Shown here: one piece after another, positions 5,899 through 16,188 of the stretch
Layout: the number at the start of each line of letters is the position of its first letter
Numbering within the stretch: position 1 is the first letter of the stretch
NCBI GenBank assembly: GCA_001603505.1
Contig: LUZC01000054.1
Span: 1-39,189, forward strand
Length of the DNA stretch: 39,189 bases
Origin: Bacteroidales bacterium Bact_11
GTDB lineage: Bacteria > Bacteroidota > Bacteroidia > Bacteroidales > UBA932
Direction: 5' to 3'
Translations under genes and position numbers: made by a program
The notes under the pieces: generated by a model
Databases searched by the model: none
Told to the model about the DNA's origin: nothing
What the model saw: the letters and a program-made list of their open reading frames with translations, nothing else

Positions 5899-6192
5899 TT
5901 ATACGCTTTGTTCGATGTTCCAGACAAAAGCCCGGACACCCACCGACTTGTTGCGCGCATCGAGTTTACGGACCGTCAGCAGCAGTTCATCGACTTTTTC
6001 GTCGGGAACGACGGTCATGACGGCCGAATTCATCTCCGGCCAGGTATGCGTGCCGCGGCGCGGTTCGCCGTCGACGGATCCCCGCCCCTGCACCTGTTCG
6101 AAAAAGGTGAATCCGCGCACGCCCAGTTCGTCGAGCATGAACTCTACACGGGCCGTGAAGGCCTGGTTGAACACGATGAATACACTTTTCAT
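5899..6192 (-). CDS. PII-like regulator of the RND efflux operon
   Basis: A 97-residue soluble protein with a PII-like layout: a first strand M-K-S-V-F-I-V-F-N, a helix, a strand G-F-T-F-F, then a loop G-R-G-S-V-D-G-E-P-R-R-G-T-H-T-W-P-E-M-N-S-A and a strand V-M-T-V-V, ending with a helix and short strand. The G-R-G-S...G-T-H-x-W-P-E pattern fits the PII-like proteins reported next to RND metal and drug efflux pumps (called PII-NG in the literature). The gene overlaps the permease gene by 4 bp (ATGA), so it is translationally coupled as the last gene of the efflux operon. It lacks the long uridylylated T-loop with its conserved tyrosine found in GlnB/GlnK. The ligand is unknown. Confidence 0.7.
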   Translation of the reverse strand: MKSVFIVFNQAFTARVEFMLDELGVRGFTFFEQVQGRGSVDGEPRRGTHTWPEMNSAVMTVVPDEKVDELLLTVRKLDARNKSVGVRAFVWNIEQSV

Positions 6193-9100
6193 TGGGCTTC
6201 CTCCTGATCAGGGTTTAATTGCATGAAGATGAATTCCTTGCGCCGTTTCTCCGCCTTGTTTCGCTCACCGCTGCGGGAAATCAGGCCATAGACCACCGGA
6301 ACGATGATCAGCGTGATGAAGGTCGATACCAGCAGGCCGCCGATCACCACAATGCCGAGCGGATGCCACATCTCGGAACCCTCACCCTGGCTGAGCGCCA
6401 TCGGAAGCATACCGAGCAAGGTGGTAAACGCCGTCATCAGCACCGGGCGCAGACGAGAAGCGCCCGACAAGGCAATCGCCTCATTGAGGGCATAGCCGCG
6501 GTCACGCATCAGATTGGTGTAGTCCACCAGCACGATACCGTTCTTGACCACGATGCCCACGAGCATCACCACGCCCAGCGCAGCGATCATGTCGAGCGTC
6601 GTGCCGGTGATCCAGAGTGCCAGCACCACGCCGGAAAGACCGAACGGAATGGCCAGCAGGATCACGGCCGGCTTGGAGAGGCTTTCAAACTGCGAAGCCA
6701 TCACGATATAGACGAGCAGGATGATGAGCAGCGCCAGCGTCAGGATGTCGCTGAATGACTTCTGCTGGTCTTCATAGTCACCCGCCAGCACCACGGAGAC
6801 ACCGGAAGGCGGCGTATGCTGGTCAATCTGGGCCTGGATAGACTGGGCGAGTTCGCCCAGCGATGTTTTGTAAGGTGAAGCCATTACGCGCACATAACGC
6901 TGACGGCTCTTGCGCTCGATGGTCTGCGGGGCCCAGTATTCCTCGATCGAGGCGATGTCGGAGAGTTTGATACGTGCACCCGTCGCCGTGGGGATCGACA
7001 GATTCAAGATATCGCTGATGGAGTTGCGGTCCGATTCCTTGAGACGCACCACGATGTTGTACTCGTCGCCGTCTTCTTTCAGGAATCCGGCCGTGTAGCC
7101 GGCCACGCGGTTTCGGACATACTGCGACACCGTGGCCGTGGTCAGCCCGTGCATGGCGGCCTTTTCCTTGTCGACGACCACCTTCAGTTCGGGACGGTCC
7201 TTGTCGCGGGAAATGCGCACGTTGCGGGCGCCCGGCACATTGTCGACAATCGCCTGGCGGATCTCGGCGGCGTAGAGGCTCGTCTCGTCAAAGTCATAGC
7301 CGTAGATTTCCACATCGACCGTCGAACCGCCGCCCATACCCATGCCACCCGACGACATGCACTGGTACTCCACAATCTCGGGATACTGCGCCAGCTCCTG
7401 GCGGATGACTTCGGCAATCTCGTCGATACTGCGCTGCCGTTCATATTTCTTGTTGCACACCACCGTCATCGAAATCTTGTAGTTGGTGGTGGAGGAGAAG
7501 AGCGCACCAATCGAGCTCTCGTCGTTGGAACCCGTCGAAGTGGAGATGCGCTTGACTTCGGGTACCAGCGTCTCGATACGACCTTCCAGCTCACGGGCCA
7601 GGGCGACCGACTGTTCGACGCGCGTACCCGGCTGCAGCTCGACGGTGACGCTGAGGCGGCCATTGTCGCTGCTCTGCATAAAGTCGGTTCCAATCTTGCC
7701 CGCTATCATCGGAATCATGGTCAGGCCAAAGAACACCAGGGCCACGACGATGGTCACCAGTTTGTGGCTCAGACACCAGGAAAGGAGCCGTGCGTAGGCC
7801 CTGTCCACCTTGTCGAGGAAGCCCACCACAGTGCGGTCATACCAACCTTTCTTTTCGACGCCCTCAATCAGATGGCCCTGTTCATCAATTCTGACTTTAT
7901 TGGCTTTCAGTATCTTGGAGCACAACATCGGGATCAGGGAAATCGCCACGATGGTCGAGGTTGAGACCACGATGGTCACGATCCATCCCAATTCCTTGAA
8001 CAGGATGCCGGCCATGCCGGTGAGCATCGTCAGCGGAATGAATACCGCTGCGATGACGAGCGTGGTGGCGATCACCGACGTCCATACCTCATTGGTCGCA
8101 TAGATGGCTGCCTCGTGGGGCGAACTGCCGCGATCGATGTGCTTGGTAATGTTTTCGAGCACCACGATCGCGTCGTCCACCACCATGCCGATGGCCACCG
8201 TAAGCGCGGACAGAGAAATGATGTTGAGCGAACTGTCGGTCATCAGCAAGTAGATAAACGCCACGATCAGAGCGATCGGGATGGTGATGCTGATGATCAG
8301 CGTCGCCCTCCACTTGCCCAGGAAGAAGAACACCACCAGCACCACGAACAACAGCGCGTAGAGGATGGATTCTTCCAACGAGCTGATGGCATTCTCGATC
8401 TCTTCCGAGGAGTCATAGATCATTTTGATCTCCACATCCGAAGGAAGGCTCTTTTGCAGCTTGGCGAGTTCCTTGCGCACATCCTTGCACACCTGCACGG
8501 TGTTGGAACCCGATTTCTTGGCCACGATCAGACGTACGGCATCCTTGCCGTCCACCTTCTCGTCGAGCGATAGATCCTTGATGGTGTCGCGAACGGCAGC
8601 CAGGTCGCGCACGAACACTTTCTGGCCGAGCGCCGTGGTCGATACCACGATGTCGGCAATCTCCGAACTCTGCCCATATTCACCCCGAACCTGCATCTGG
8701 TACTGCTCTTTGTCCATCTTCACCGTACCGCTCGACATGTTGAGATTGCCGGCGCTGATGGCACTCGCCACCTGCTCGAGCGTAAGATTGTAGCCGTCAA
8801 GCCGCGCCTGGTCGATGTCGATATAGACATAACGGTCGGGCGCGCCCGACACCGACACGGAACCGATGCCGTTGATGCGGTTGAGCTGCGGCACCACTTC
8901 GTCGTTCATGATCTTTTCCAGACCCGGATAGCTTTCCCTGGCCATCACGGAATACTGGATAATCGGCATCAGGCTCGAATTGAGCTTGAACATCACGGGG
9001 CTGGAGCAACCGTCGGGCAGGTTGCTCTTAATCATGTCGATATACGACCGTATGTCGTTGGATGCTTCATCCCGGTCTGTCCCCCACTCCAGTTCCAGCG

Positions 9101-15913: not shown

Positions 15914-15933
15914 AAAGGGGTGTAAGAGAGTAT

Positions 15934-15967
15934 GGGGATTAGCCGCCACCACTGGCGGCTTTTCCCC
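15934..15967. repeat. hairpin next to the nested palindrome
   Basis: AGCCGCCA and TGGCGGCT (15941-15960) form an 8-bp stem with a 4-nt loop. After a symmetrical TT/TT internal loop, GGGGA (15934-15938) pairs with TCCCC (15963-15967). A further imperfect hairpin (CCCC-GCC-TCC-GGC-GGGG, 15964-15983) adjoins it. These stand between the lipoprotein promoter and the four-arm element. Confidence 0.6.
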
Positions 15968-15992
15968 TGCGCCTCCGGCGGGGTCCTTACGA

Positions 15993-16112
15993 GCATTGAC
16001 AGCTGGTGGCCGTCCGGCCACCAGGCTGTTTTTGGCTTGTCGGGGCGCCCATGCAAGCATGGACCCCCGCCAAACCAAAAACAGCCGGTCGCTTTGCGAC
16101 CAGCTGTCATGC
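15993..16112 (-). repeat. four-arm nested palindrome (cloverleaf-like element)
   Basis: Almost every base of this 120-nt segment falls in a stem. The outer stem pairs 15993-16003 with 16103-16112 (10 bp, one bulged base). Inside are three arms with no linkers except base 16102: arm A 16004-16023 (9-bp palindrome, 2-nt loop), arm B 16024-16086 (12 perfect pairs GGCTGTTTTTGG/CCAAAAACAGCC at the base, then 4, 5 and about 8 further pairs with small defects), and arm C 16087-16101 (GGTCGC/GCGACC, TTT loop). Where pairing is not Watson-Crick in arm B, the minus-strand RNA has G-U and the plus strand has A-C, which favours a minus-strand RNA. It starts 3 nt behind the tRNA-Ala 3' end. It could be a structured RNA or a palindromic mobile or repeat element. 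Confidence 0.75.
16077..16107 (-). terminator. intrinsic terminator of tRNA-Ala
   Basis: On the minus strand ACAGCTGGTCGC, loop AAA, GCGACCGGCTGT form a 12-bp stem (one G-U pair) running straight into five T residues. It begins 9 nt after the tRNA. It shares bases with the outer stem and arm B of the four-arm element, so the terminator and the cloverleaf are alternative folds. Confidence 0.75.
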
Positions 16113-16115
16113 TTG

Positions 16116-16188
16116 TGGAGCATAGGGGATTCGAACCCCTGACCTATAGATTGCGAACCTATCGCTCTACCAACTGAGCTAATACCCC
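16116..16188 (-). tRNA. tRNA-Ala (anticodon CGC)
   Basis: A 73-nt cloverleaf: acceptor GGGGTAT/ATGCTCC, D arm GCTC-AGTTGGTA-GAGC, anticodon stem ATAGG/TCTAT with loop TTCGCAA, 5-nt variable loop AGGTC, and T arm AGGGG-TTCGAAT-CCCCT. The anticodon is CGC, reading GCG. The G3-U70 pair, the main alanine identity element, is present along with A73. CCA is not encoded (the DNA continues CAAGC). CGC is a less common Ala isoacceptor and fits a GC-rich genome. Confidence 0.93.

Follow-up and report, generated by a model that had tools for sequence, protein, structure and literature searches.

The palindrome that follows tRNA-Ala is one member of a large and apparently undescribed family of four-arm folded DNA units in gut and rumen Bacteroidales. 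Units of this family lie directly behind certain tRNA genes, where they are probably placed by recombination at the tRNA end and supply a new transcription stop. Our preferred reading, to which we give a probability of roughly 0.6, is that the copy in the window (the whole stretch of 39,189 nucleotides analysed here) is an insertion of about 200 bp bounded by att sites at the tRNA 3' end, a non-autonomous relative or an end module of tRNA-targeting integrative elements. Its observed basis is the fold, covariation, a strand bias, the position at the tRNA end and, at the family level, end repeats specific for the tRNA. The first-pass annotation had left the choice between a new structured RNA and a mobile palindrome with a preference for tRNA 3' ends; this was partly supported, with homologues found and both the covariation and the shuffle tests passed. 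The openly accessible literature that we searched held no description of such elements; two papers describe a short palindrome behind the tRNAs of an archaeon (PMC5217627) and other Prevotella repeats (PMC4755523).

On the minus strand, positions 16113 to 15992 form a closed four-way junction, an outer stem and three arms with one unpaired base at the junction, which bears out the earlier description of four arms with almost no linker. The outer stem consists of AAGCATGACAGC (16103..16114, first paired base 16113) and GCTGTCAATGCT (15992..16003). Between its two sides lie arm A (16087..16102), arm B (16024..16086), a hairpin of 28 pairs whose tip, read in the direction of the tRNA, is G(CTTG)C, and arm C (16004..16023), all on the minus strand. 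The tRNA-Ala(CGC) occupies 16115..16188 of the same strand according to ARAGORN. The element had been placed 3 nt past the tRNA; it does lie directly behind it but slightly closer, since the outer stem pairs from 16113 and the element therefore begins 1 nt past the tRNA end set by ARAGORN. The MFE of 15993-16112 was -87.6 kcal/mol on the minus strand, versus -46.5 ± 3.9 among 200 dinucleotide shuffles, no one of which reached so low an energy (z = -10.6). The plus strand of the same segment reached -78.8 (z = -8.95), and the minus strand with DNA parameters -50.6 (z = -9.0). The irregular sites of arm B, counted as isolated 1x1 sites on the minus strand, were two G-U, one other and no A-C, in keeping with the claim that its wobbles are G-U on that strand. 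The absence of a known RNA family was likewise upheld: at the gathering threshold of Rfam 15 the window yielded tRNA only, and five loci scanned at E up to 3 gave nothing above gathering except tRNA.

Covariation was measured on five sequences. In this set 93.5% of the cells were paired versus 80.4% in shuffles, and 29 of the 60 pairs carried double changes versus 12.3 in shuffles, with all five helices involved; these figures come from a structure derived from the same alignment and from shuffles that ignore relatedness. Slid controls gave 41.9-54.3% of cells paired. Covariation thus measured is strong, the sequence differing between loci while the pairing is kept, and the expectation of covarying pairs in relatives was borne out.

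Homologues were found both by blastn in relatives and by a covariance model in the family and the order. Within its own genome (an 81% complete assembly), blastn returned only the element itself, on both strands, and searches of phage and plasmid collections gave no match to it. Among 148 relatives, four further genomes had blastn matches, all beside a tRNA; two of them (G027 and G053) hold the whole junction and the other two chiefly the arm A part. Reading of tRNA 3' flanks in three genomes, sorted by eye with the remaining listed matches dismissed as neighbouring tRNAs or loose folds, gave four-way elements in 3 of 35 flanks in the own genome, 2 of 37 and 2 of 43. A covariance model (R1) built from five elements, without any tRNA sequence, matched at least 132 of 398 genomes of the family in 12 of 25 genera (E 0.001) and at least 22 of 393 genomes of the order in 19 of 207 genera (E 1e-6); in 18 of these 19 order genera the match lies beside a tRNA or a tRNA fragment. 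These counts are lower bounds because the search missed the window element itself, which scores 58.7 bits with the model and yet is absent from the three matches in its own genome; the element of G011 (L124) was also missed in the family search.

The preference for tRNA 3' ends proved to be a property of the family. For 57 loci retrieved from the R1 matches, the start falls at a tRNA 3' end in 49, at a fragment of such an end in 6 and at neither in 2 (55 of 57 at an end or fragment); as one locus (L302) repeats another (L287), this amounts to 54 of 56 distinct places. The two loci with neither, L289 and L303, are both from G606. We collected 91 four-way loci among 246, a ratio that is no frequency since the loci were mostly selected by their match; a rule-based selection of sites passed 31 of 160, of which L121 was false and L122 mis-parsed. 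The 88 elements used for counting are these 91 minus one mis-parse (L129, Pro-agg) and two near-duplicates, and only some were checked by eye. With one Pro mis-parse excluded, the four-way set stands mostly behind tRNA-Ser (59) and tRNA-Arg (19), then Ala(cgc) (4) and Pro (4), with single cases behind His, Met, Val and Gly. The element begins 0-1 nt from the tRNA in 61 of 88, and the architecture held across families.

The annotation had argued for selection on an RNA read in the tRNA direction. The strand was confirmed as constrained. At isolated sites of the 88 elements G-U outnumbered A-C by 59 to 27 (p = 7e-4, treating elements as independent), a bias carried by arm B (45:18; outer stem 5:5, arm A 2:0, arm C 7:4). 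The tip of arm B reads CUYG rather than its reverse in 45 versus 8 elements, again treated as independent, its forms along the tRNA sense being G(CUUG)C and G(CUCG)C; 22 elements have GCTAGC, the same in both readings. Loops of the form G..A in the tRNA direction prevailed over the reverse in arm A (32:3) and arm C (35:5), versus 27:12 in plain tRNA flanks, and for 66 of 88 elements the tRNA-sense strand was the one that folded better, under RNA and DNA parameters alike. That RNA is the working molecule was not established, because the orientation of wobbles and loops fits folded single-stranded DNA equally, and because the first arm resembles a terminator, at which most RNA should end without reaching arms B and C. 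G-T is the milder mismatch in DNA too, and where a region is transcribed, C-to-T changes of its non-template strand could contribute to the G-U excess. The bias counts, all of which take the elements as independent, identify the strand, not the molecule.

Arm A, together with bases of the outer stem and the T-run that follows (16108-16080, minus strand), has by form the GC-rich hairpin and T-run of an intrinsic terminator, and from its form we infer that it stops transcription of the tRNA; the T-run belongs to arm B, where it pairs with a distal A-run. The terminator scan found four consensus sites in the region versus 1.1 ± 0.9 in shuffles, among them a terminator-like site on the plus strand at arm C (16003-16024). 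Within the first 110 nt behind the tRNA, 86 of 91 four-way loci had the terminator form, compared with 113 of 155 plain tRNAs and 33 of 155 shuffled plain flanks, and an antisense terminator-like hairpin was present in 74 of 91 four-way loci. A reading as bidirectional terminator was weakened by the loops of arm C, which are oriented to the sense strand. One terminator sequence, of the AGAGGTCGACTAAAAAGGGTCGGCCTCTT type, recurs behind several tRNAs and elsewhere in genomes of one genus (L336, L338, L349 and others).

These terminator counts, the 0-1 nt spacing and a strand bias that fits an RNA read in the tRNA direction are what a structured 3' element owned by the host would display, a strong terminator or insulator of tRNA genes, perhaps also an antisense stop, that does not move. 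We consider this explanation unlikely, though deserving of weight. The sense orientation of the arm C loops is unlike an antisense terminator, a working arm A terminator would presumably leave arms B and C rarely transcribed, and most tRNAs lack the element (by eye, 3 of 35 have it in the own genome). It also leaves unexplained the tRNA-specific end repeats and the further terminator behind them, to which we now turn.

In the window the feature extends past the junction to about 15926; this further part holds another hairpin and, in decayed form, a repeat of the tRNA-Ala 3' end. Next to the outer stem lies a link with a small hairpin D (15964..15991, minus strand), which by eye looks like an inverted copy, now decayed, of the tRNA 3' end. 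For the family this likeness is statistically supported, the inverted acceptor-strand copy beyond the outer stem being tRNA-specific too (0 of 5000 permutations). The tail hairpin follows, GGGGAAAAGCC..GGCTAATCCCC (15934..15967, minus strand); at the distal base of its stem the sequence of the tRNA's T-stem 3' strand recurs. Overlapping its end is the decayed direct repeat (15926..15940, minus strand; AATCCCCATACTCTC versus AATCCCCTATGCTCCAC) of a segment made of the T-stem 3' strand and the acceptor 3' strand of tRNA-Ala (16131-16115, minus strand). We propose this repeat as the putative distal att site of the window unit; an equally good match arose in 83 of 5000 shuffles and in 44 of 5000 segments drawn at random from the window.

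In many members of the family the tail hairpin closes with the T-stem 3' strand of the very tRNA that precedes it, for example AATCCCGACGG behind Arg(tct), AATCTCG behind Ser(gct) and AATCCTACTACCCCGAC behind Pro(tgg). Across 79 of the 88 elements the match to the own tRNA averaged 7.44 nt versus 6.02 for permuted tRNAs, with 0 of 2000 permutations as high, and the own tRNA scored above the mean of the other classes in 54 of these 79 and below it in 21. Repeats of at least 13 nt were found in 7 of 91 four-way loci versus 2 of 155 tRNA flanks without a four-way element, and were absent from the other 84; an exact repeat of 17 nt occurs in L174, L194, L281, L295 and L297. In four of the six loci with repeats of at least 15 nt (L194, L281, L295 and L296) a separate plain terminator follows, as if the old terminator of the tRNA had been pushed away; of the remaining two, L297 runs into a second element and L174 into a weak hairpin. 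The direct repeat of the tRNA 3' end that bounds a tRNA-targeting integrative element was thus found at the level of the family, and could in part arise by tandem duplication (L264, L286).

The tail could also be traced on its own. The form AATGCGCAG-hairpin-CGAGCACAATCC had 47 listed matches (two of which overlap) in 21 of 40 genomes of the genus, and the reversed control of the pattern no match in these 40 genomes. Among 30 loci read, 20 have the tail at a distance of 80-232 nt from the tRNA in front, and in several others it follows a tRNA fragment; it is sometimes in tandem. The pattern occurs in 71 titled stretches, nearly all from Bacteroidales or Bacteroidia MAGs, many of rumen and gut, including Candidatus Cacconaster and Muribaculum sp. 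An289; the one outlier is a Phycisphaerales MAG, and viral contigs gave no match to it. In front of some tails stands another module, GGGACCTGAGGCC..GGCCGAAAGCAGCGACC..AGGGAGCT (L156:2206-2284, L143, L129 and L147), here called the second module; in L156 it comes within a few bases behind tRNA-Ser(gga) without a four-way element. In Muribaculum sp. An289 (L264, about 6150-6750) partial units from arm B to the tail repeat in tandem with a 176-bp period behind tRNA-Ser(gga). Elsewhere (L286/L301, G125:C58) two four-way copies, alike by eye and score, lie 499 bp apart with repeated tail sequences and a tRNA-Ser 3' end between them.

One tRNA was compared across genomes of the genus. Of 14 listed loci of tRNA-Ala(cgc), matched at 96% identity or above (L318 read from L082), three have a four-way element, one a remnant (G028) and ten neither, as judged by eye; this again leaves a host element absent from most copies of a single tRNA gene. 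The ten have plain or mirrored hairpins, except for L314 with no evident hairpin. In L307, L313 and L316 behind tRNA-Ala, and in L357, L358, L359 and L374, single long hairpins that mirror the tRNA 3' end or a spacer stand in the place of the four-way element, and are possibly a simpler form of the unit.

Mirrored hairpins behind the same tRNA and at island ends, the inverted acceptor-strand copies beyond the outer stem, and the tandem or partial copies at some loci are also what would be left by long inverted duplications without function, created by template switching at tRNA terminators and kept palindromic by replication slippage. We regard such an origin as quite improbable. The apexes of arms A and C differ within one element by eye, whereas a fresh mirror copy would match; loops and wobbles are biased to one strand; and the same architecture is held across families.

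Insertion by recombination draws further support from islands. In G036 the order is tRNA-Ser, four-way element, tails, about 20 kb, a tyrosine integrase at the far end, a tRNA-Ser fragment, and then a second four-way element with tails. Among nine cases of tRNA fragments, integrase domains lie beside the fragment in L178, L153 and L146 and fall below the cut-off in L139; no integrase was recognised by eye in the stretch examined in the other five. Relatives of one island integrase were read at 21 loci, and a tRNA-Ser 3' fragment was present in seven: L356, which is the G036 island again, is the only one to run straight into a four-way element, L363 has a plain hairpin and then a four-way element, L357, L358, L359 and L374 pass into one long hairpin, and L365 into nothing clear. 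The copy in the window stands alone, as integrase and transposase families gave no match among its 23 reading frames scanned, which belong to ordinary chromosomal families or have no match; the unit holds no genes, and an integrase gene within it was not found. An empty site for L194 was sought in 250 genomes and no exact pair of empty and filled sites emerged, because its flank is the terminator sequence repeated at other tRNAs and elsewhere. The suggestion of a mobile element is therefore upheld for the family by the end repeats, the separate terminators, presence and absence at one tRNA and the G036 island, but not by a precise empty and filled pair.

Spread by a transposase of the Y1 (RAYT-like) type, as a palindrome of the REP/REPIN kind, appears very improbable to us. 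Hairpins oriented to one strand would suit it, and the arm B core CGTC-hairpin-GTAAG of 20 of the 88 elements recalls the CGTC tag of Di Nocera 2013 (PMC3733652). Y1_Tnp is present in 27 of 40 genomes of the genus, in 19 of 23 with an R1 match versus 8 of 17 without (Fisher p = 0.038), an association uncorrected for relatedness and based on a family search that misses some carriers (G011, L124). However, copy number is low, the element being alone by blastn in its own 81% complete assembly, and neither many near-identical copies nor an associated RAYT was found; only 1 of 20 Y1_Tnp flanks examined has a four-way element, that one adjoining tRNA-Met; none of the 20 has a tail, with two tail patterns; and tRNA-specific end repeats misfit such insertion. 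Each of the three rivals, insulator, inverted duplication and REP-type palindrome, leaves some tested result unexplained.

Under the preferred reading of an att-bounded insertion, the unit would begin in the T-stem 3' strand of the tRNA and hence carry its own copy of the tRNA end, with the palindrome as its core. Behind the four-arm fold would come the tail hairpin, whose distal strand would be the displaced old 3' end of the tRNA. A recombinase of tRNA-targeting integrative elements may insert the unit in trans, or the unit may be an end module left over from such an element. Movement would bring in a new tRNA end and a terminator and leave the old end behind the tail; arm A would take over from the displaced terminator, so that the tRNA would stay functional. 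The other arms may be conserved as a folded single strand of tRNA sense. As few transcripts should get past arm A, it would be easier to understand why arms B and C are conserved on the same strand if single-stranded DNA folds during movement.

Known systems share parts of this organization. According to the IME review PMC5704250, the majority of IMEs that have a single tyrosine recombinase target specific sites, tRNA 3' ends among them, and leave the target undisrupted. Like IMEs of the NBU1/NBU2 type, which use a tyrosine integrase, the unit sits at a tRNA 3' end, with a replacement end and bounding repeats, and the G036 island with its tyrosine integrase has the unit at both ends; unlike them, the window unit is free of genes, its body is one folded palindrome, and its distal att copy lies inside a hairpin resembling an enlarged T-arm. 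Arm A has the form of the intrinsic terminators behind tRNAs, but unlike in plain ones its stem base and T-run also pair distally in a conserved four-way junction. With REP, BIME and REPIN sequences the family shares strand-oriented hairpins, an inverted arrangement and the CGTC tag; it differs from them in having one blastn copy in its own genome, a tie to tRNA ends and no link to Y1 transposase flanks.

A fold of about 130 nt that is conserved and has no Rfam family would constitute a new structural family at integration sites much used by bacteria. The preferred reading, if true, would show integrative units keeping the invaded tRNA alive by bringing a terminator and a tRNA end together, and it makes recombination of such units as folded single-stranded DNA testable. 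The unit also offers a means of spotting what lies behind tRNAs in Bacteroidales of gut and rumen, be it islands, CRISPR-Cas loci or other cargo.

Integron cassettes recombine as folded single-stranded DNA. In its anatomy the tail is like an attC site: the ends of its stem are conserved, the hairpin they enclose is hypervariable, and it occurs in tandem arrays and on the flanks of cargo. Unlike in attC, these stem ends copy a tRNA T-stem. By analogy, the unit might be an integron-like cassette working on folded single-stranded DNA of tRNA sense, in which the T-arm would receive, the tail would be the cassette site and the four-way fold the body that returns the terminator, a scheme that strikes us as rather unlikely. 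Equally tentative is its extension, in which the tail would share the stem base of the T-arm with a hypervariable tip, and cargo such as a type II CRISPR-Cas locus would lie between two tails.

Two loci carry candidate cargo. A type II CRISPR-Cas locus (L147:2358-7961, G003:C1) lies between two copies of the second module plus tail, behind a tRNA-Ser 3' fragment and a four-way unit; Cas9 (1218 aa) and Cas1 were recognised by Pfam, and a Cas2-like frame and the repeat array by eye. In L169 a frame resembling by eye a DNA cytosine methyltransferase, possibly cargo, lies about 430 nt past a four-way element behind tRNA-Ser.
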